Origin: Thermoplasmatota archaeon
GTDB taxonomy: Archaea > Thermoplasmatota > Thermoplasmata > Lutacidiplasmatales > JAMCUS01
Assembly (NCBI GenBank): GCA_023379385.1
Contig: JAMCUS010000028.1
Location: 41,207 to 105,206 of the forward strand
DNA length: 64,000 nucleotides
Direction of reading: 5' to 3'
A model generated the notes under the pieces. It saw only the letters and a list, made by a program, of their open reading frames with translations. It searched no databases and was not told the DNA's origin. Below, one piece after another: positions 3,910 through 53,266 of this stretch; the first letter of the stretch is position 1, and each line of letters starts with the position of its first letter. A program made the translations under genes and the position numbers.

Positions 3910-4000
3910 GGGTCTGTAGCTCAGCTAGGTAGAGCAATCGGCTCTTAACACCTAAAAGAGAGATACCGAAAGGTCAGGGGTTCGAATCCCCTCAGGCCCG
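3910..4000 (+). tRNA. tRNA-Lys(CUU) with a 17-nt intron
   Basis: The acceptor stem GGGTCTG pairs with CAGGCCC. The D arm is GCTC...GAGC and the T arm AGGGG-TTCGAAT-CCCCT. The anticodon stem is TCGG/CCGA. The loop reads CTCTTA, then 17 extra bases ACACCTAAAAGAGAGAT (3948-3964), then A. Removing these gives the loop CTCTTAA with anticodon CUU. The insert sits after position 37, the canonical archaeal intron site, and CTCTT pairs with AAGAG inside the intron to form a bulge-helix-bulge-like structure for the splicing endonuclease. The discriminator base is G and no CCA is encoded. Confidence 0.93.
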
Positions 4001-30393: not shown

Positions 30394-30930
30394 CTATATA
30401 GCATGGACAAAGGTTTCATAGGTAATGTATCCATTTACACTCATTTCTACCCTCTCTATAACCAGAATAACACCGGATATGACTGTGACATTGTTGTATT
30501 CTGAATCCATATTTTTTAATACTGAAGAATTAGCAGATACAAGACCGGAACCCAGTAGCGATAGATTCCACGGATGTATTTGGTTTGAGAGTGGATAATA
30601 TGCATTTTCACCCTGCCACGTAAGTATGACCGACTTATTCTGGATGGTTATTGTATAATGAGAGGATACCATTATAAATGGAAGGGTAAATTTCGTGATT
30701 GTTTTGGGTATTACAAGACCCCTTTGTGATGATGTATAAACAATATATTCAGTATAATTTGATTGCATGGTAGAAATGGAATTGATAGTTTGTCCAATAC
30801 TGGTAGCTGTCTGAACAAGCACGGAATTACTTTCGTTATTGTATATCAATACATATACACCCATAACGGATACTATTAACACAATCACGGTTATAGCTAT
30901 CCATACCTTTGATAATATCCAGTCAATCAT
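30394..30930 (-). CDS. Single-pass secreted-domain protein of the giant-protein operon (gene 5)
   Basis: 178 residues. One N-terminal helix (IAITVIVLIVSVMGVYVLIY, residues 11-30) anchors an outside domain with several N-x-S/T sites and beta-strand patterns (LPFIMVSSHYTITIQNKSVILTWQ). No charged pilin signal peptide precedes the helix, so it is a plain anchor or a pilin-like minor subunit. It is the last gene of a five-gene minus-strand operon, 12 bp after its neighbour. No homologue is recognised by eye. Confidence 0.7.
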   Translation of the reverse strand: MIDWILSKVWIAITVIVLIVSVMGVYVLIYNNESNSVLVQTATSIGQTINSISTMQSNYTEYIVYTSSQRGLVIPKTITKFTLPFIMVSSHYTITIQNKSVILTWQGENAYYPLSNQIHPWNLSLLGSGLVSANSSVLKNMDSEYNNVTVISGVILVIERVEMSVNGYITYETFVHAI

Positions 30931-30942
30931 ATATACACCTCT

Positions 30943-31524
30943 CTAAACTGTTGTTGGCCACACGTATAGCCATATATAACCCTCACCACCATTAACATAT
31001 ACAAGATCAAAGGAAGCTGTTTTTGTATTTGGCAGTTGTGTATAGCTGGTTATATGTGTGGCAGAATCGGTAAAAAATAAAGATGCTTTAGGGCTGGTTG
31101 CCGACGGGTAGTATGCATACATGGCGTAATGATATGGGGGTACAAGACCTAAATTGAAATATCTGTGTATAATGCCGGATATATTTGCCAACCCAGATGG
31201 TGATATGCCCATCATACTGAGATTTAAGTACTCACCAATCATGTACTGTATGGTGAAGGTTCCGTTGATATATATCTGTGTACCACCATTAATATAATGT
31301 GTTGAATTTACAGTACTCTGAAGTACTGAACTCAGGAATCTGTTTGTATATTGCTGCTGATAGTAAAAATTCACGGATGGTGAGACTCTGAGAAAAAAAG
31401 AGGTAAAGGTTACAAGTATTACAGAGGCTATCAGCATCAGCATGAAGAATATAACAGAGTCTATAAGAGCAGTCTGCCCATGTTTCTTTATGAATCTATA
31501 CCTGGGATGATGTCTGCCATACAT
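30943..31524 (-). CDS. Pilin-like protein (gene 4)
   Basis: 193 residues. The N-terminus is basic (RHHPRYRFIKKHGQTALID) and runs directly into a ~23-residue helix SVIFFMLMLIASVILVTFTSFF. The KKHGQTALIDSVIF pattern, basic residues, Gly-Gln, then a hydrophobic helix with an early acidic residue, resembles archaeal type IV pilin-like signal regions. The C-terminal part is Thr/Asn/Tyr-rich and beta-like. It overlaps the upstream gene by 29 bp. Likely a structural or minor pilin-type subunit; this is inference from the N-terminus. Confidence 0.7.
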   Translation of the reverse strand: MYGRHHPRYRFIKKHGQTALIDSVIFFMLMLIASVILVTFTSFFLRVSPSVNFYYQQQYTNRFLSSVLQSTVNSTHYINGGTQIYINGTFTIQYMIGEYLNLSMMGISPSGLANISGIIHRYFNLGLVPPYHYAMYAYYPSATSPKASLFFTDSATHITSYTQLPNTKTASFDLVYVNGGEGYIWLYVWPTTV

Positions 31525-32011
31525 AAATTTCCATAACCCCTACGTCAATTACATTATTCTTTATCTGTATATCTACAGGTGTTGTAAGCGTTACAACTGT
31601 TATAAGATTATTGGTGTATGTCAATTTGTCTCCGAAAGTCCATGAAACATTTGTTACCTTATCCGTAATATTTATAAAAAAGTTGCCGGGTGGTTGAAGA
31701 TCCTTTGTAATTACCTCCGTACTATAGACATTATTTTCAAAGGATACTAACTTGGACATATTGAATTCTCCGGATATCAACGAGCCATTATAGGTTCCAT
31801 TCACTACTAGTAAATCGTATGTTCTAACGCTGCTTTCAAAATTATTGGCTGCATTGAGAAGATTGTTATACTTTTGGAAGGATATGTACACAGATAACGT
31901 ATGAATCATTGCAATCATGAAAATTGTGATGGATACAATAACAATAACTGCAGTCGGTAATTCTTCAAAAAAACCTGTAACGCCATGCTTTCTCTTTCTC
32001 CTTTTTATCAT
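31496..32011 (-). CDS. Pilin-like protein (gene 3)
   Basis: 171 residues. It starts MIKRRKRKHGVTGFFEELPTAVIVIVSITIFMIAMIHTL: a strongly basic head, Gly, an acidic residue and then a helix, as in archaeal pilin-like proteins of Tad/type IV pilus loci. The outside domain has N-x-S/T sites and ends with an aromatic strand (MEIYVWQTSSQV). GTGAT lies just upstream of the ATG. It is placed 73 bp after the giant gene and overlaps the next gene, so it belongs to the same transcript. Confidence 0.7.
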   Translation of the reverse strand: MIKRRKRKHGVTGFFEELPTAVIVIVSITIFMIAMIHTLSVYISFQKYNNLLNAANNFESSVRTYDLLVVNGTYNGSLISGEFNMSKLVSFENNVYSTEVITKDLQPPGNFFINITDKVTNVSWTFGDKLTYTNNLITVVTLTTPVDIQIKNNVIDVGVMEIYVWQTSSQV

Positions 32012-32084: not shown

Positions 32085-35000
32085 TCAGTACTGTGTCCAT
32101 GCATATGGACTGTTTGGAGTGTACTGCCATTTGACCAACCATGGGGGTACAGTTCCGTATAGGCCACCACTGTTATCACCTGAGTAGTAGTTTACAAATA
32201 GCGTATAGTGCATTGCGCTGGGCGGGTTGTATGGGTTTATATCCTTGTAGGTATCTATGGACATATTGCCGAATGCCACGTACTTGAAGTAGCTATTATA
32301 AAAGCCTGTAGAGTAGTTACCGCTCATGTTAATTTCGTATGATATGTATATCATCGGTGGCTGTACCGGTTTCTGCTGATAGCTGTACGGTATCTGGTAT
32401 GCATCTGCCGGTATCGTTACGTTGCCAGGCAGTGATGTGGCGTTTATCACCGTTACATACTTGCCATTGACCAGTGCCGTATAATTGAAGTGCGCACCTG
32501 TTGTATTGAATACACCTGTGTAGTTTATTAAGGTAATGTTCGCTTTGGTGTATGGATCGTAGTACATTACCGATATTTTATCCGACTGCTTGTAGCCATA
32601 TGTGGTATAAGGTATATAACTTGGTGTTACGTACGGTGTTATCATATCATCTACACTGAAGGTATAGTTGATATTTACATCCACACCAATACTTACTGTA
32701 CTTGTAGAGTTAAAGAAGTTGGATGAGCTGAACGGATATAGCGTAACTGTCTTTACATTGGGCACCGTCAGTATTGCACTTGCCGGTTCAGGTGAGTTCC
32801 ACGATACCACATACTGGCCAGGTGTAAGGTATATATAAAATGGCAGCTGCTGTACGTTCTGGGCAGTCATTGTCACCACGCCATTTGACGCATAGCCGTT
32901 GTACCCCTTACTGTAGTTATGGAGGTAATAGAATCCAGCACCTGTAGTAGATTTAACTGTCAATTGAACTGAAGTTAACTGTGGAGCGATGTATACAGGC
33001 AGCATACCCATGCCCTCTGTATAGTTACTGCTGTTTCCAAAGTTCTGCACATATGATAACCTTGCCTTTGCTCTGACCAGCATGGAGTTCCAGTGTGATA
33101 AGTCATTTCCAGCTACATTCAGTTCCTTGGCCCATGTTGTTAATCCATGATTCTTGGTTGCTATCACGTTGCCAGCACCATTTGGACCCGTATTGATTAT
33201 GAAGTTTACGGAGATGTTCTTTGCAATAGACATATTCATGTTGTTAAGGAAGTTTGCCACATCGTTTGTATTTTCCTTCAGGAATGGGTCAGATGGTATT
33301 GGTGTAAAGAAGGAGGCAGCAGACCCGCTAGCCGTCAGGTAATCCTTTGAATTCGCCAGTGATTTGGCAACATAGTTAGTACTGTTTGTAGAGTTGGCAA
33401 TTAGATATATATTGCCCGCATACTGATGCGTATAGGTCTTGGTACACGAACTTATCAATCCACTGCTGTGTACTGTTACGTAGTCCTGGAAGCCATATGA
33501 GACCTTACCGAAAAACTCAGAGGTTATTGCAGAGTTTCTGGATTCCAGATCCAGAGCGGATTCCCAGAAATTCATCACACTCCACTTGGTGGACTGTGCA
33601 TACACTGCGTAGGAGAACAGGGTATAGCTGTAATCCTGCTGCCACATCGAGGTGTGGTTATACTGGTATGCAACGGTAGGACTCAGGGTAAACGTTGCAA
33701 CGTTGGACATTGTGAACATTTCAGCTGCTGCCTGCGCAGAACTCTCAAACATCGCTGCCGGTGGCTGACCGTTTATACCTGCATCGATGTAGAGAGTCTT
33801 CTGCAGTACAGAACTGATCTCTTGCTGTAGATTGACTATTGCCGAACTGCCTATGGATGGCGATGGATCACTGCAGTCACCGAACAGCATATCAATAAAC
33901 TGCTGTGGATCAAGTATGATCCATATAACAAGCACTGCTACACCCACCCATAACAATACTGTGGACAGTGTGGCAAGTACCGATGCAATTGCCGATAAGG
34001 TAGCGCTGCTACCAAACAGAGCCGTAAACATTGTGGATGTCAGCAATGTACTTATAGCGCCGAAGGCACCACTCAACGCAAAGTACCACATAGCCGAGTT
34101 AAGGTTAAACCCTAAGAATAACTGATATAATGCCTCACCTACATTTCCATGATCAATAGCCAGTTGCTGCTGGAACATTTCTATGACCGTTGCCACAGAC
34201 GCTACCACATCCGCAATCTGTGCCACATCTGCAGCTACCTTCTCCATTACCTGTACGGCGTCAGAGAGTTCACCGCTCAATACCTTCAAATTGAGGAAGT
34301 TAGCTATCTCCTCAAGGAATTTAGCATCCTGTATCATCACATCCAGTGTGTTCTTTATCAGGGTAAGAACCTGTGTCGGGTTGGTCCAGTTGGTGAAACT
34401 CTTCCATGATTCTATCAAATTGAGCGTTGCTGTATAGGCAGACAACCCATCCTGAACTATATTTATAACCTGTATAACGTTTGACAGATAGGTCTGTATG
34501 AAGTTGTGAATATCGCTCCACCATGAGGTAGGCAGTATTGAGAATACACCGTTACCGCTATTTTTCATGAAGTACATGGCGATATTATTGACTAAATTCA
34601 CCACGTCCCTTGCCTTGAACATTAACTGATAGATCTCGGGCAAATTGCCGTAGTTCTTGAAAATACCTATGAAACTCTGTACCTGCGTAAACCAGTAAGT
34701 AGCACTCTTCATGACCATTGATGCAAAGCTACCTATAGACTCATTCGGATAGAAATATTCTCTTGCAAGATATAGACCACCAACTATAGCTGCGGCTCCA
34801 AGGAGAACAGCACCTGTTCCGTATTTCGCAGACAGCATCTTGTAAAGCGATATTCCCTGCTCAATATCTGTTTGATACTGCTTTATAAGACCTAAATAAG
34901 ACGTCCAGCTATCATTTCTTGCAAACAGATATTTAGCTACAACCAGCGCTGCAAATCCGATGTATTCGTTAATTCCTACCTGTCTGAAATCGCTTTCCAG

Positions 35001-38000
35001 AGTGGATAATGGCCCAAGTATATTGTTATTAAGATTGGACAGATACTGCGTCCAGCTCTCATTTGCATCAAACACGAATTTGGCTATTACTAAAGCACCC
35101 AGTCCTACCAGGCCATTGATTCCAAGATTCTCCAGTTCACCCTTTATAGCTGCCAGATTGGATAACACAGACGTAGCACTGTTCAGATACTGCGTCCATG
35201 TCTCATTGGCTCCGAATATAAACTTACCCAGTACAACTGCCGCCAGTCCCCAAGTATCAGGAACACCCAGACTGCTCAAGCTGTTCATCATACTGTTGAT
35301 ATCGTTTAATCCCTGGTTGGTTATCCATGAAAAGTATCCAGCCCATGAAGCATCAGGCATAAGTACGAATTTGCCCAGTAGCACTGCTGCAAATCCAACA
35401 ATTCTGTTGATACCCCAGTGCTCGAACTGTGCGTTCAACTTCATTATTCCAGGCATCCAGAAGGTTGTAACGTTCTGGGTAAAGTTGAACCACGAAATAT
35501 CAGATGCCAGTGTAAATTTGGCCAGTATCAGTATACCGAATCCCCATACATTGCTTATACCCAGTGTTTTGAAATCATTTTCCAGGGTCAGTACGTTCTT
35601 CAACATACCATTGAGACCAGTTAAATATTCAGACCATCCACTGTTAGGTGCCAGAACAAACTTGCCAATGATAACAGCTGCCGCAGCCACCCATATATTG
35701 GTAACGCCCAGCTGTCCCAGTTCCGTTTTTATTTGGCTTATAGTCCCGAGCAGACCATTTGCTTCATTCAGGTAAGTGAGCCATGATACATTCTGGGCAA
35801 ACATAAATTTATACAGGGCTACTGCTGCCAGTCCTACTATAGAGTTTACACCTATATTGTTCAAATCACCGATTATACCCTTTATTGGTGTGGCATATGC
35901 GGATAAGGTCGTTATGTACTGCGCCCAGCTCATATTCGCTGCAAAGGCAAACTTGCCTATCAGTACAGCTGCAAAAGCGGCGAGGTTACTCACGCCAAGT
36001 TCATTTAACGTTGACACAATATTCTCTGTCTGTGTATAATAGAACGCAACATTACCCGGTAGAACCTTCAACAGGAATGTCTGTACCGGTATGGATTGTC
36101 CACCTGCGTACAGATCCAGCGCAAAGGCATCCATACCTATCACACTATCAGGAATACCGATGTTATTCAGGACAGGTATTATCTGTGCTATGATGTTCTT
36201 CCACGTAGTTACGTTGTGAGCCATCGAATACCCTATACTGGTGATTGAATCATTTTCATAATTCATTATCCAGTTAATGGTAAATGCCATTGGTGATAGC
36301 GATGAACCGTACAGGTTCTCCATTTGAGTTGTGTGATTGTTGATCCAATCAGACATCTGCTGGAACATGTAAGTGTATTGTGGCAGTACGTTTAATGTAC
36401 CGCTGACGGAGGTTATTAATCCACCCGGTCCTGCAAATCCCTCCATGTATGCCAGTCCAATATCAACTGATTCTGTATTAGGATAGTATACAGGCACATT
36501 TTCAAATGTAAAGTTGAGATCGTTAAGAACTATTGGTACTCCTGACTGTCCCTCTTTATGTAATATTGTTATCATGCCCTGTGCTATCTGAGACCATGTC
36601 GCAACAGAGGCATATATTCCCTGAGTCATAGAATAGCTCTGGAAATCCAGCTCAAATGAGGTGGATAGTGCATTCTTATTGATGTATTGTTCAAATCCAG
36701 TTGCCCATGTAACATAGGAAGAGAGGGTATTGTTCATCTGTGTATAATTGGTATTGTTATTGAAGGAGAATCCCACCATTCCAGGTGGGAATGGATAACC
36801 TAACAGGGTAGCGTAGAACTGCGATAGCTTGGATAACCACATATCTCTGGGCACATTCTGCAGGTAACTCATATCCAGAGTCCATAATGTTTCCGTATTT
36901 ATTCCCTCCGTAGTATTGATGTATAAATTGGTGAAGCCATCTGCAGTAACATTTACATAACCCTTACCTTCCTCCATTGCACCATTTGGATATTTTATTG
37001 TCACCGCTATGAGATTGGATCCCTGACCAAGGTTATAGAGTGTTATTGGCTGTGACGCAGAAAAGATGCCTTCTTCCATATTGTTTACAGATACGCTAAG
37101 GTAGGTCTGATTGTTGAACAGATTCTGTGCTATCCCTGTACTGTTGTGTATAGTTATATGTACTGTTTCATACGGATCAAGTATCCCTGCAAACAGTGTA
37201 GTGAATATTGATGGATTGTGAATGCTTGGATACTGTGTAATCTGCGAATTCAACGCTCCTGATACAGCATTGGCTGATGATGCCCATACTCTTGTTAACC
37301 CCTTTATGTTGTAGTTAGAACCATACGACGCACCATTCAGCTGATTCAGTTCATTGACTTTTATATTGAATGAAAAGTTATAGAAGTTAATATCATACAC
37401 GTACGCACCTTCAGTGGGAGCAGCACCAGTACTACCGCTGCTACCTCCGCCACCTCTGCTGCCTCCTCCTGTTATCACTCCGTTGCCAAGCCCGCCACTG
37501 CTTGCATAATAACTTGCTGGATTTGTGTATGGCGCAGAATAGACATTCTTATCCACTCTTACATTGAAGTTGGATAGTAAAAATGACGTAGCAACATTGT
37601 AACTTCTTGTAGTGGTTTGCAGATTAACCTGCTGACCATTGAAAACAAACGGTACATTGAAATACTCCAGATTCAGGAAGTATTGATCATATGGCACAAG
37701 TTTCTGGAGAGACGGGTTTGTAGCACCGTTTACAGCTTTATATATTTCTACAGGATTTATGTGAGATCTGGCTGCAGTGCTTAAACTGTTTAAATAATTA
37801 TTCAGTGCACTATCACTTGATGTCCTGTACAACGCCGCCTCATCCAGATATACAGCAAACTCCAGTGCATTCATAACTTCACTTTCTGATGGAGCTACGC
37901 CAGGGTTTGCCATCATTTCACTCTGCAGTATGGCATGGGCTATTGCCATACCCATTCCCTGTTCAGTAAAATCAAAATTAACTCTGTTAGCAGAGGTCAT

Positions 38001-38609
38001 TAAAAATGCTATGGTTGTTGGTACCACCTGGTCTATTGATATCGTTGTATCCATTTTTTGACCGGTTGTGGGATTCAATATCGTTACTGGAACAGTACCT
38101 GTCACCCTTATATATGTAGGTGTCGTCATGGAGGTAGCCATACCCAACGAATTTACACCAGTATATTCAAATGGCACAGCACTGGTATTGAGTGAAACGC
38201 TACCTGGATAACCGCGTATTGTAACAACATACTGGCCCACAGTGGCACCCTGCCCTGCAACGCCATTTTGCCCCATACCGAAGTTGGTTGACAAAGATGA
38301 GAGAAAATTCTCATACGTTAATCTGTTTATGGTGAAGAGGGATGAACTATTGGCAAGATCCGATAATGACTGGATTGCTGCCTGAGTAGCAAGCGATGTT
38401 ATGAATGTAGATTCAGTATTCACCATACCTGTAAAACTCAGGGAAGAATTATTATTGTTAGCCTGCCACCAGTGATCCTGCATTGCACCAATGTAAACTA
38501 TGGCGAAGGCAGATAAAATCAGGATTATTACTGCTATCAGCGAAAAGGGTATTGCTCCTTTTCTAACCTTTTTTTTATTTCCTATATTTTCTATACCTTT
38601 TTTATCCAT
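32085..38609 (-). CDS. Giant membrane-anchored surface protein with eight tandem ~48-residue repeats
   Basis: 2174 residues. The N-terminus NKKKVRKGAIPFSLIAVIILILSAFAIVYIG is a pilin-like or signal-anchor helix. Residues ~60-400 are mixed, with a Gly/Ser linker (GGGSRGGGGSSGSTG, ~390); ~430-860 are Asn/Thr/Tyr-rich beta-like outside regions. From ~866 to ~1250 eight repeats follow the pattern LGI-x2-hydrophobic-GFAAVLLGKFVFA-x-N-x-SW-x2-YL. Then helical segments (1270-1560) lead to a hydrophobic hairpin cluster (~1550-1600) and a C-terminal beta-rich region with many N-x-S/T sites. A related gene lies at 48.4-53.3 kb. The N-terminus recalls the large DUF7286-type proteins of haloarchaeal pilus loci (from memory). 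No enzyme motif seen. Confidence 0.85.
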   Translation of the reverse strand: MDKKGIENIGNKKKVRKGAIPFSLIAVIILILSAFAIVYIGAMQDHWWQANNNNSSLSFTGMVNTESTFITSLATQAAIQSLSDLANSSSLFTINRLTYENFLSSLSTNFGMGQNGVAGQGATVGQYVVTIRGYPGSVSLNTSAVPFEYTGVNSLGMATSMTTPTYIRVTGTVPVTILNPTTGQKMDTTISIDQVVPTTIAFLMTSANRVNFDFTEQGMGMAIAHAILQSEMMANPGVAPSESEVMNALEFAVYLDEAALYRTSSDSALNNYLNSLSTAARSHINPVEIYKAVNGATNPSLQKLVPYDQYFLNLEYFNVPFVFNGQQVNLQTTTRSYNVATSFLLSNFNVRVDKNVYSAPYTNPASYYASSGGLGNGVITGGGSRGGGGSSGSTGAAPTEGAYVYDINFYNFSFNIKVNELNQLNGASYGSNYNIKGLTRVWASSANAVSGALNSQITQYPSIHNPSIFTTLFAGILDPYETVHITIHNSTGIAQNLFNNQTYLSVSVNNMEEGIFSASQPITLYNLGQGSNLIAVTIKYPNGAMEEGKGYVNVTADGFTNLYINTTEGINTETLWTLDMSYLQNVPRDMWLSKLSQFYATLLGYPFPPGMVGFSFNNNTNYTQMNNTLSSYVTWATGFEQYINKNALSTSFELDFQSYSMTQGIYASVATWSQIAQGMITILHKEGQSGVPIVLNDLNFTFENVPVYYPNTESVDIGLAYMEGFAGPGGLITSVSGTLNVLPQYTYMFQQMSDWINNHTTQMENLYGSSLSPMAFTINWIMNYENDSITSIGYSMAHNVTTWKNIIAQIIPVLNNIGIPDSVIGMDAFALDLYAGGQSIPVQTFLLKVLPGNVAFYYTQTENIVSTLNELGVSNLAAFAAVLIGKFAFAANMSWAQYITTLSAYATPIKGIIGDLNNIGVNSIVGLAAVALYKFMFAQNVSWLTYLNEANGLLGTISQIKTELGQLGVTNIWVAAAAVIIGKFVLAPNSGWSEYLTGLNGMLKNVLTLENDFKTLGISNVWGFGILILAKFTLASDISWFNFTQNVTTFWMPGIMKLNAQFEHWGINRIVGFAAVLLGKFVLMPDASWAGYFSWITNQGLNDINSMMNSLSSLGVPDTWGLAAVVLGKFIFGANETWTQYLNSATSVLSNLAAIKGELENLGINGLVGLGALVIAKFVFDANESWTQYLSNLNNNILGPLSTLESDFRQVGINEYIGFAALVVAKYLFARNDSWTSYLGLIKQYQTDIEQGISLYKMLSAKYGTGAVLLGAAAIVGGLYLAREYFYPNESIGSFASMVMKSATYWFTQVQSFIGIFKNYGNLPEIYQLMFKARDVVNLVNNIAMYFMKNSGNGVFSILPTSWWSDIHNFIQTYLSNVIQVINIVQDGLSAYTATLNLIESWKSFTNWTNPTQVLTLIKNTLDVMIQDAKFLEEIANFLNLKVLSGELSDAVQVMEKVAADVAQIADVVASVATVIEMFQQQLAIDHGNVGEALYQLFLGFNLNSAMWYFALSGAFGAISTLLTSTMFTALFGSSATLSAIASVLATLSTVLLWVGVAVLVIWIILDPQQFIDMLFGDCSDPSPSIGSSAIVNLQQEISSVLQKTLYIDAGINGQPPAAMFESSAQAAAEMFTMSNVATFTLSPTVAYQYNHTSMWQQDYSYTLFSYAVYAQSTKWSVMNFWESALDLESRNSAITSEFFGKVSYGFQDYVTVHSSGLISSCTKTYTHQYAGNIYLIANSTNSTNYVAKSLANSKDYLTASGSAASFFTPIPSDPFLKENTNDVANFLNNMNMSIAKNISVNFIINTGPNGAGNVIATKNHGLTTWAKELNVAGNDLSHWNSMLVRAKARLSYVQNFGNSSNYTEGMGMLPVYIAPQLTSVQLTVKSTTGAGFYYLHNYSKGYNGYASNGVVTMTAQNVQQLPFYIYLTPGQYVVSWNSPEPASAILTVPNVKTVTLYPFSSSNFFNSTSTVSIGVDVNINYTFSVDDMITPYVTPSYIPYTTYGYKQSDKISVMYYDPYTKANITLINYTGVFNTTGAHFNYTALVNGKYVTVINATSLPGNVTIPADAYQIPYSYQQKPVQPPMIYISYEINMSGNYSTGFYNSYFKYVAFGNMSIDTYKDINPYNPPSAMHYTLFVNYYSGDNSGGLYGTVPPWLVKWQYTPNSPYAWTQY
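34865..36012 (-). repeat. Coding tandem repeat array, eight units of ~145 bp
   Basis: Eight consecutive units of 48-49 codons inside the giant gene. Examples: NELGVSNLAAFAAVLIGKFAFAANMSWAQY; ELENLGINGLVGLGALVIAKFVFDANESWTQYL; DFRQVGINEYIGFAALVVAKYLFARNDSWTSYL. Fixed positions are LG(I/V), G-F/L-A-A, K-F/Y, N/D-x-S/T/G-W and Y. Units differ a lot at both DNA and protein level, so the array is old, not a recent slippage product. Confidence 0.85.
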
Positions 38610-38632: not shown

Positions 38633-39154
38633 TTAACTATCCTCAATTATAAAATTAGATGTAATGGTGTTTGATACAACACCAGTATATGATACAGTAA
38701 TTGACAGTGTATAGGTAGACCCATGCCCTGGTATACTGTAGTATTTAACAGTAAAAAGGGCTGCAGGTGCACCACCTAATGATCCTGTACCACTACTCGT
38801 TGGCAATGTTGTTGATGTAGATGTCGTACCTGCCTGCGATGGCCCATATCCACTTATGGTTACAGTAGCACCTACAATGGGTTTACTGTTTGACCCTATC
38901 GCTACCACATACAGTGTAAATGAACCACTTGTACCTGTAAAAGTGTAGGTACTTTCTTGAGACAGACCCCCCGTGGGTGCTGGCGCATAGGTTGTAACCG
39001 TCGATAAATTGGGTTTCTGGAGAGGCAGCATAAAGCCAACCAGAATAGCTATGGCGATAGCTGCAATTATCACTAGTATTATTAAATATAGCGGCATGCC
39101 TTCCAATCCACCTTTCTTCCTGATGCTCAATCCTTTCCTCAACGTTTTATACAT
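38633..39154 (-). CDS. Pilin-like protein (gene 1 of the giant-protein operon)
   Basis: 173 residues. The head SIRKKGGLEGMPLYLIILVIIAAIAIAILVGFM has the basic KKGGLEG motif with an acidic residue before a helix, as in archaeal class III (prepilin) signal sequences; cleavage after Gly is plausible. The outside part is Ser/Thr/Gly-rich and contains an Ig-like segment (YVVAIGSNSKPIVGATVTISGYG...TYTLSITVSYTG). GGAGG lies 9 bases upstream of ATG 39154. It is the first gene of the operon, 23 bp before the giant gene. Confidence 0.75.
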   Translation of the reverse strand: MYKTLRKGLSIRKKGGLEGMPLYLIILVIIAAIAIAILVGFMLPLQKPNLSTVTTYAPAPTGGLSQESTYTFTGTSGSFTLYVVAIGSNSKPIVGATVTISGYGPSQAGTTSTSTTLPTSSGTGSLGGAPAALFTVKYYSIPGHGSTYTLSITVSYTGVVSNTITSNFIIEDS

Positions 39155-48035: not shown

Positions 48036-48442
48036 GTAAACACCAACAAATAGCATATATCATGGATGAATAAAAGGGTTTCTGGATTTTTAAATGTGGA
48101 TATGAATATGCTACCAACGTATGGAAAGTACCTGATAACGAAGATACGTTATCAAATGAATTGATGGTATCATTGTTATTCTATTTTGCTTTAATATTTA
48201 CACATTTCAATGTGAGATCTTTTATTTGCATTTTTCATTCCAGAAACCATAATAATCTTTTATTACATTTTATAAATAATAAGCGATAATTTAACCAAAG
48301 GGCAATAACAGTTAATGGTGCAAATATAGATAATGTATAAGTAGTACCTAATCAGGTATATATTTATAAAGAAGAAAAGATAGGCACGTTTAGCTTAGCT
48401 GTATATGGTTAGGGAGATGGCCTTTGGTTGGAGGTAGTAACC
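48036..48442. other. AT-rich stretch before the second giant gene, with hairpin and promoter
   Basis: About 400 bases without a gene. It holds a GATAACG-AAGATA-CGTTATC hairpin (48134-48153, 7-bp stem, 6-base loop), then AT-rich DNA, a TATA-like TATATTTATAAAG (48357-48370) and a GGAGGT ribosome binding site (about 48430-48435) ahead of the ATG at 48443. Confidence 0.45.
48357..48370 (+). promoter_or_regulatory. TATA box of the second giant gene
   Basis: GTATATATTTATAAAG, about 75-85 bases upstream of the ATG at 48443, where GGAGGT is placed 7 bases before the start. The presence of both signals suggests the locus is, or recently was, expressed. Confidence 0.4.
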
Positions 48443-51400
48443 ATGCGTTGTAATGGTGTATATGGCGAGGGACGTAGAAAGGGGGTTATTCCGTTTTCAC
48501 TTATTGCAGTTACCATGCTTGTTTTATCTTTATTTGCGACTATATACATTTTTAGTATGAACAGAGAATGGAATAAACCTGCAAATGCAAACGTCTCAAA
48601 CATTGATTCTGCTGCATCGTTTCTTAATTAGTATATAAGTTCACTGGCAGAAATGGACGCAATAAATGCAATTCAAACTGATCAAAAATCGCCGTGGTGG
48701 GCAGTTGCATTAACTGCCCATAATTATTTTTTAAATGATCTTAATAATATGGAAGGAACCTATTTTGAATCGGAGTATGTAGTGACATTTACCAATGTCT
48801 CATATACTGTTGGAACAATACCGTTTTATTATAAAAGTGTAAATATATTAGGTAATTCAACCCTTACATCCTCACCTGTATATGCAGAAACATCAGGTAG
48901 TGTATCATATATATTAAAAAATGTAATGACTGGAGAGACTATTGAAGAGACTACAGGAGTATCAATGGTCATACCCAAAACACTACCCTGGTTAATGTAT
49001 CAGGAAGGCAAAATTAGATATGATTTTGCTAACTATGGATTAATGGATAGGATTATAGAGTCATTACTGGAGCAATATTATTATAATTTGAATGGCCCGG
49101 TTATGCCTGATAAACAGATAATTGTTGATACTCTGAACTTTGCAATATATATAAACGATATAATCGTCTACAGAAGTGATCCTAATCCAGTACTCAACAC
49201 GATATTAAGCGGATATGGTGTTTCTTCGCTGAAGCATGTAAATATATATAAACTCTGGAAGATTTGGATGGTGCAGAGTAAATTCATTGTTAATTTTAAT
49301 ACACGATATAATCTCCCATCTAACTATGTACCTACATATTATTTAGATTTATCAAATTTTAATAAACCAATCTATTTCATGAATATACCGCCTTACTCCG
49401 TGGAGGATACCATGAAATCTTTCAGAGTATCAAATGGCGTGTCTATAAATATACAGAAAAATATCGTAATGGAAGCACATAATTTTTCAGATCTTTACTA
49501 TAGTTCAAATAGCCCTAATTATAGATACGGCGCAGAGGTATATGATATATATATTGAAAATGCAAGTGTGAGTTACTTTTCAAGTTCTACAAATTCTAAT
49601 TCTCCGTCTAGCTTCCAGTTCACAATTCCATTGAATTTATCTTTGAGATTATTTAATTATGTTAATAGCAAAATACCGTTGTTAGATTATCGCAACACCA
49701 TTCCAAAAAACAGTTCAGCTGGTTTTGGATTAGAAGATGTTTACCCCAATGGGCATGAGCCTGTAATCTTTCAGGATTACTTCGCTGATTTACTCTTTCA
49801 AACAGGAAATGTTACTCTTTATGTATTTAATAATACAGGCATATCTGCAAATAACCTTCCGTCAAACTGTTTGATAAGCATTATGTTGGATGGTGCACAA
49901 TTGGGTGATTATACGCCAGCCATGTTTGGTAACTATGGTAGTATAACATTTTATAACATACCAGCGGGAGAGCATTCATTCAACATTATTATTAAATATA
50001 CATACAATGTAGTAGAATATGGCAATGTAGAGATATCAATAGGAAATAGAGGTATAAATGTAGTAAATGGTAATTCTGTGTTAAGTGGTACAGATGTTCA
50101 GGGCAACAATTACATGTTAAAAAATAATATTGCACTTACTGTTAATGAAAACAATAATATTGAAATGCCAGTAATTGCCAATTCCACCTCTATAGATATA
50201 GAACCGTTTATTATATTCCAGCAATTAATATTGGTAAATGTACCACGTTCTAAGTGGTTATCAACTTTAATGGGTACATATGCTGCAATATCTGGCTATT
50301 ATGTTCCGTCATATATTTACAATGTTAACTATGGCAATCTAAATGAATTACAGCAGCTTGTTTTATGGTTAAATGGTTTTATTAGATATCTTCATTATTA
50401 TGACATACCTGGTGGTGGAAATGAAATGGCTACCCTGTCTATTTACTATGGTATAATGTCCTCTTTATACATATGGAGTAATCTAATAGATGGTTTGGTT
50501 AAAATAGAACAGTCTCCCACATGGAAAGATACTAATAATTTGCAAATAGAATTTTTTCAAAATGTTTCTATGATGCCTTCTTCTGATAATGGTGGAAGTG
50601 GCGTTGGAAATAGTGGTATTGTAACGATTATAAAATATACATTAAAATTTATAAATGGACCTACTGGCACCACTGCAACTGACGTCCCAGAGGTATCTTT
50701 TGAAGAAAGCTATGATGTAAATGCGAAAGAAATGTCATTAACATTACCGGATGGAGATTCTTTTAATTTTAATGCTGAATCCATAAGCACTCAGGAAACT
50801 TTAACAGATATTGTTCCTGGGGAAGAGGATGGAACATATACGCTGGTAACACATCAAACAACAGTTACAGAAACATCCGTAACAATATCTGTTACAGATA
50901 CTGAAGGAAATTCATATGTAATAAACTATGATTCGGTATCTTATGAATATGAAGAGGCATCTCAGGAATATTATGTTGTCGGGAATATAGACCCCCTAGA
51001 ATTGGCGTTTGTGGCGGTTGGTATAATATCTGCCGGTATAAGTATAATGGAGTTGGATTCTGAGATATATACAGATTTTACACATCCATCATTTATTGCT
51101 ATTAGTATGACGATAGAGAATATTGCTAACGTAGTTGGAGCCAGTATACAGCTTTTTAAGTTTCTTATTCCACGTATTAGTACCCTAACAAACCTTTTTG
51201 AAAGTAGTGCAGATTTGATAGACTCTATTTCATTTATCATTGCAGGTATAGGGGCCGTTGTAGCTGGAGTGATAATAATAGCTCAATTGATTCAATCAAT
51301 AATGAATAAATATAACATCCCATGGTATGATGCATTGGGAATGTTAGCCACAGGTACTGCAGGATTAAAGTACACTCTGGTTTTCTATTTAGCTATAACA

Positions 51401-53266
51401 GTTACCATATTGGGTGCTGTTATGATTGCTGCTACTGCCGTGGCATTGTTAGCAGGTGCTGCAGTTTCCGCTGCAGTACCTATAATTGGGTGGATTGTAG
51501 CAGGTATTTTGGTGGCTATATTCCTGATATTGAATTGGAATGCTGTAGTTAACTTCTTAGAAAATTTACCGTCAGAAATAGTTAATTGGATCGCGGGAGG
51601 TGATAAGGCAATAAGCATATCAGATTCGTCAATACAGACTATGGAAAGTTCTATAACATATACACTGAATCAAACACTAAAACTATCAGCATCTCTTAAT
51701 AGCCAGAATTTATCATTTAGCATATATAATGGGTATAATGGGATGGCGATGGGATTTTATGATTATGAAATATATATGTTTTCTACAGATAAGGGTATAT
51801 CATCTGAAATGAAAAATGTTAGTACATATGAATTTGATGAAGGTTCTGCATATCTCAACACCACTTATGTAAAGTATTCATTACAATGGTCAATAATTAA
51901 TGTATGGCATTCCATAGATGATCTTTTAAATTTAGTAACCACAAGTACTCCAATCTGGGGATGGAAAACAATTTATTTACCGCCATTCTTCATCTATACC
52001 ATTGTAGGTTATTCAACAGGTGAATCGCCGAATTATCTATTTGGAAAAGATAATATGGAGCCATTTACCAATACACATGTTGGAAATGGTTTATACATAT
52101 CCAGTGATTTTAGGCATAATTTCACTGGAAACATATTTGTAACTACTAACAGTTCTACCACCTATAATTATATAAATGGTGTGGTAACGGATCCATATGA
52201 TAGTGAATTCTTCTGGCCGTCATCGTACAGCAGTTACAGTCCACCATTCTCAAACATTAATGACCCGTTCTTTAACGGATATGTGCCGTATCTTATGGCT
52301 GCTACTGGTGATATAGCCAGATTATTGACTACAGTAAATATGACTAACAGTAAGGATCTGTATGTACATTATATAGTAAGTGGAGGGAGTAGTGACAAAA
52401 TTACAACTGTAGGCCTGAACGGATGGCTTACAGCAGTGAATTATACAGGACAGAATCTATCTTTGTGGAATATCAATAATGCTATAGCATCTGCTAAAAT
52501 AAATTATTTAACTGGATTTTATAACGCACTAAACTTTACTGAAAATTACTGGGGTATGGCCGAATTTAATGTAAATGTTAGTATACCATCTGCTACTTTC
52601 ACCATTACTACATCTAATGAAAATGTATTCAAATATTTTTATACAGGTATTAATGATAATTTTCATAACGGAAAAGGGAATAAGTTGATTATAAATTACG
52701 ACCCTTCTATGGGCAATAGAGGTATGCCTTTATTTGTGTATCTAACGCCTGGAAACTATATAATACAATGGACAGATAAATACAATACAAAAGAAAAAAA
52801 GTTGGTTGTATACCCATTCTCATATCCATCATTTTTTGGCAATCTTTCTTTATCTGAAGTCAATATAAATCATATCAATATAAACCCAATATATGGATAT
52901 TATCAGATAGATAATCAGTTTTCATATGAATTCAGTATTCATATAAAGGTAGTAAATAAAACAACTGGTAATATTGTTCAATCATATAATTATAACTCAT
53001 CTACCAATGTAGCCCTGGATACGTCAACAATCCCTATAAATTCCGAATATATAAATAACAATTACAACATAATAATAAATATTTCACTGAATCTCAGTAA
53101 CATAGGTATAAATGAATGGTATCATCAGAGCAATGCTACGTCCCTTGGCACTTTACAATTTCTCAGTGAATTTGGTTTATCACATACCCTAATTTTTATG
53201 ATTTTCAATAAAGCTGAAATTGATAAAAATGGTAATACCTTCTGGGGTGAAATAAAATATAAATAA
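48443..53266 (+). CDS. Second giant surface protein, anchor split from body by an in-frame TAG
   Basis: One reading frame of ~1608 codons with a single internal TAG (48629-48631). Before it: MRCNGVYGEGRRKGVIPFSLIAVTMLVLSLFATIY, almost the same anchor as the first giant (RKGAIPFSLIAVIILILSAFAIVY). After it, in the same frame, YISSLAEMDAINAIQ continues what the first giant has (ITSLATQAAIQSL). The 1537-residue body aligns with the first giant at both ends (NVPRSKWLS / NVPRDMWLS; LMYQEGKIRYDFANYGL; SLQWSIINVWHS / TKWSVMNFWES) but lacks the eight repeats, having a beta-rich insert (~residues 640-790) instead. Either a nonsense mutant that lost its anchor, or read-through. Codons are more AT-rich than in the first giant. 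Confidence 0.75.

Follow-up and report, generated by a model that had tools for sequence, protein, structure and literature searches.

In archaea, the established cases of stop codon read-through are selenocysteine and pyrrolysine, according to a review (PMC8211752) and likewise to a 2021 study (PMC8037382). The pyrrolysine read-through genes of methanogens and their relatives carry an in-frame TAG, as does the archaeal gene described here, which encodes a giant membrane-anchored protein. However, the interrupted giant is not a methylamine methyltransferase, its genome yielded neither a PylS over the cut-off nor a tRNA with a CUA anticodon, and its stop falls in a variable alignment column; neither selenocysteine nor pyrrolysine fits it. 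A second kind of described system is the single-nonsense pseudogene or polymorphic nonsense allele. In-frame stops tend to be short-lived, lasting about as long as population polymorphisms do (PMC7918605), and the giant, with a single lesion, agrees with this, sharing with such alleles one in-frame stop, an intact body and an apparently short age. The giant differs in that its homologues are too distant for dN/dS to be measured.

An interrupted gene for a giant membrane-anchored protein

The source assembly is a draft of 1.63 Mb in 45 contigs, 93.8% complete, from an uncultured Thermoplasmata archaeon. It holds three related genes for giant membrane-anchored proteins, two of them within the 64,000-nucleotide stretch analysed here (the window) and the third on another contig. 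The features of the two window genes are as follows.

32085 to 38609, minus strand: first giant, an intact paralogue of 2174 aa (alignment)
48363 to 48370, plus strand: TATA-box-like TTTATAAA, read in the sequence, at a plausible archaeal-promoter distance to the start; a putative promoter element
48430 to 48435, plus strand: Shine-Dalgarno GGAGGT, 7 nt upstream of the ATG at 48443, read in the sequence
48443 to 48628, plus strand: anchor part, 62 codons from an ATG start, with a membrane helix at about residues 13-40 (translation, alignment)
48629 to 48631, plus strand: in-frame TAG, codon 63; T, T, D and D in this column of the homologues (translation, alignment)
48632 to 53266, plus strand: body of the giant, 1544 open codons and TAA, with a second hydrophobic stretch at about residues 994-1040
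48653 to 48655, plus strand: first ATG of the body, with no Shine-Dalgarno sequence upstream (TTCACTGGCAGAAATG)

The TAG, at codon 63, interrupts a frame of 1608 codons (48443-53266) that is open elsewhere; the frame translates as MRCNGVYGEGRRKGVIPFSLIAV...SAASFLN*YISSLAEMDAINAI..., and its next stop is the terminal TAA at 53264-53266. Dicodon coding potential in the same frame is 25.7 over the 60 codons before the TAG and 25.6 over the 60 after it. It remains high, in the normal range, throughout the interrupted giant, whose mean per 50 codons is 19.5; the first giant has 19.9 and genes at large have 22.0. A sequence-only reading of this DNA had described anchor and body as lying in one frame with a single TAG between them, no other lesion, a GGAGGT site and TATA box in place, and a join that aligns with the uninterrupted first giant; the upstream sequence, translation, coding potential and alignment bear this out. 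The anchor helix ends at about residue 40 and the stop lies some 22 residues further on, not exactly at a domain boundary. Across the genome, GGAGG is found upstream of 49 of 779 starts compared with 4 of 779 control stretches, and the Shine-Dalgarno sequence is therefore a real signal in this organism.

Uninterrupted homologues span the join in four cases, two in this genome and two from another family of the same order. All four align across it, which shows that the anchor belongs to the same gene as the body. Each of them keeps the anchor motif PF(S/A)L(I/V)(A/S)V...S.FA..., and the column of the stop holds variable, non-conserved polar residues, so that a premature in-frame stop stands where homologues have sense codons. 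It is conceivable that the body is translated alone from an internal start, such as the in-frame ATG at 48653, eight codons past the stop, and serves a cytosolic function while the anchor is a separate short peptide. We regard this as highly improbable, given that this ATG lacks a Shine-Dalgarno sequence, that anchor and body are joined in all homologues, and that proteins of the family carry 25-45 N-glycosylation sequons each, as surface proteins do.

The stop could also have arisen as an error of assembly or of consensus calling, or the consensus could have taken up the base of a minor strain, with the gene intact in the living population. The assembly is a draft and all other coding signals of the gene are intact, as such an error would leave them. 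However, no local repeat or homopolymer lies at the site, and assembled genomes seldom contain isolated substitution errors. An artefact of assembly or strain consensus is the remaining serious rival to a nonsense mutation, although we consider it unlikely.

Among the genome's three giants the interrupted one has diverged most: it is 25% identical to each paralogue, whereas the two paralogues are 42% identical to each other. Most of a central repeat block of about 600 residues is missing from it, and 119 family-invariant columns are absent there. The sequence-only reading had raised a loss of surface display resembling phase variation. A reversible switch would suit a membrane-anchored family with several copies, but point stops are not known to act as switches, and paralogues only about 25% identical make homologous switching implausible. 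At the TAG site we saw no simple-sequence repeat tract, invertible segment or recombining copy; the lesion is substitution-like. Such switching is scarcely credible here.

Searches at the level of family, order and class, and in genome and viral collections for strains and relatives, found the giant family in only two further genomes, both from the other family of the same order and one of them Thermoplasmata archaeon SKW197. The shared part of the family has no match in Pfam, NCBIfam or PDB, and a structure model of the N-terminal 729 residues of a paralogue is of low confidence (mean pLDDT 47.7). The giants of the other family carry an Amidase_6/NlpC-P60-like C-terminal domain (L148:3381-4400, also L149) and those of this genome do not. 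Four small proteins flank the first giant (window 30394-32011 and 38633-39154, minus strand). Every one has a single N-terminal membrane helix and most have a short charged N-terminus, giving them a pilin-like look; none has a library match above cut-off. Long proteins built of tandem repeats, each repeat about 78 residues in length, form a large family that is scattered over the genome (L051:87-3911 and 17 other contigs).

Decoding of TAG in this genome

Of the 1287 ORFs that reach 100 residues or more, 216 terminate in TAG, and the stretch of 30 codons that follows is on average non-coding. TAG is thus a normal terminator, which speaks against its reassignment. The release factor aRF1 is present and intact. 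A search for PylS, with a cut-off of 178 bits, gave a single match, at 22.6 bits. Since 13 of 14 well-known genomes used as controls also give matches, of which just one exceeds the cut-off, the match presumably represents an ordinary synthetase. In the 93.8% complete assembly, ARAGORN run with introns allowed detected no CUA-anticodon tRNA, and neither did a scan for anticodon stem-loops, which does recover many other isoacceptors. With no PylS over the cut-off and no CUA tRNA found, pyrrolysine is rejected, which answers the earlier suggestion that pylT and pylS be sought. That reading had judged a general recoding unlikely, and the genome-wide data on terminators, tRNA and aRF1 agree. Strictly, a suppressor tRNA could still lie in the part missing from the assembly, the genome being rich in unusual tRNA introns.

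One suppressor candidate was rejected: a "tRNA-Stop (tta)" reported by ARAGORN without introns at window 3910-4000 becomes tRNA-Lys(CTT) with a 17-nt intron when introns are allowed. Other tRNA genes of the genome appear to contain introns at unusual sites, in the T-loop and D-arm (L039, C38:6778-6878; L043, C33:434; L023, C34:13289-13373; L040, C42:3244-3321; L041, C28:9430). ARAGORN misses most tRNAs of this kind, and RF00005 finds only about 31 tRNA matches.

If a near-cognate or special tRNA read through the TAG, a low level of full-length giant would result. The body still looks fully coding, and in-frame stops with dN/dS <1 have been reported in bacteria (PMC7918605). However, this sits poorly with an intact aRF1 and the lack of a PylS over the cut-off and of a CUA tRNA, with selenocysteine and pyrrolysine being the established archaeal cases (PMC8211752; PMC8037382), with the variable polar residues that homologues have in the stop column, and with TAG being not enriched among interrupted genes beyond what mutation gives. 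Read-through, which had been listed among the early options, thus gains no positive support, and we hold it to be very unlikely. Less probable still is that an ordinary tRNA reads the TAG at low efficiency and so sets the amount of giant at the surface; if true, this would be stop read-through in an archaeon by neither selenocysteine nor pyrrolysine, and a new form of archaeal recoding.

Other single-stop genes and the age of the lesion

Other genes in the assembly are broken in a similar manner. An inositol monophosphatase (C22:46252) has a single in-frame TGA with its Pfam domain continuous through the stop, an integrase (C2:23119) has a single in-frame TGA, and the reading frame of a methylase has an in-frame TAA. 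A TnpB gene (C24:3110) reads TAG at a position that is Trp in ten sister copies, of which seven are open through the compared stretch; the comparison directly exemplifies a nonsense mutation that struck a single family copy. The phosphatase, integrase and TnpB genes resemble the interrupted giant in having one stop in an otherwise open gene, but differ in that their stops are TGA, TGA and TAG, with no shared context. Two TnpB copies carry different stops at the same Trp position, TAG at C24:3110 and TGA at C28:50362 (window 9156).

A relaxed scan had suggested an excess of TAG among interruptions (23 of 58, against 17% TAG among terminators). This was rejected: once shadow frames were removed, TAG accounted for 16 of 35 candidates, an upper bound since these include ordinary gene ends and transposon remnants, compared with 33% expected from single-step mutation of the genome's sense codons, which is the appropriate reference rather than the terminator share (p = 0.08, not significant).

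The sequence-only reading had remarked that a pseudogene normally gathers more damage. That remark holds only as a limit on age. Single substitutions that create a stop make up 4.9% of all those possible in the giant's frame, and a second lesion becomes 95% likely after about 60 neutral substitutions, or 1.2% divergence; with 5-10% extra lesions from indels, 19-29 substitutions suffice for the same chance. The absence of further damage is not odd, and needs only less than about 1% neutral divergence. A single lesion therefore speaks for recent loss rather than for a protected gene, the recency being deduced solely from the lack of damage.

A recent nonsense mutation and what it means

Taken together, the TAG is probably a recent substitution-type nonsense mutation in one gene for a giant membrane-anchored surface protein, as one of the early options had proposed. 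This reading is drawn from a single stop with coding statistics intact on both sides, four homologues uninterrupted across the site, the absence of a PylS over the cut-off and of CUA tRNA hits beside an intact aRF1, the normal use of TAG as terminator, other genes broken by single stops, stop types that match mutational opportunity, and a lesion that needs little neutral divergence. On this reading the interrupted giant is a further case of a known kind, the nonsense allele.

Translation would start at the ATG at 48443, preceded by its Shine-Dalgarno sequence, and a 62-residue anchor peptide would be made, with termination at the TAG through aRF1. Because the first ATG of the body has no Shine-Dalgarno sequence, little or no body would be expected, at most traces from internal starts, and these, having no anchor, could not reach the surface. 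The allele may be newly fixed, or may be one strain's variant caught in the assembly. The role of the interrupted giant may be taken over by its two intact paralogues.

The giant family, whose shared part has no match in these three databases (Pfam, NCBIfam and PDB), may merit study in itself. As judged here, the finding is an ordinary one, one more recently lost surface protein, and it cautions against taking a single in-frame stop as recoding.
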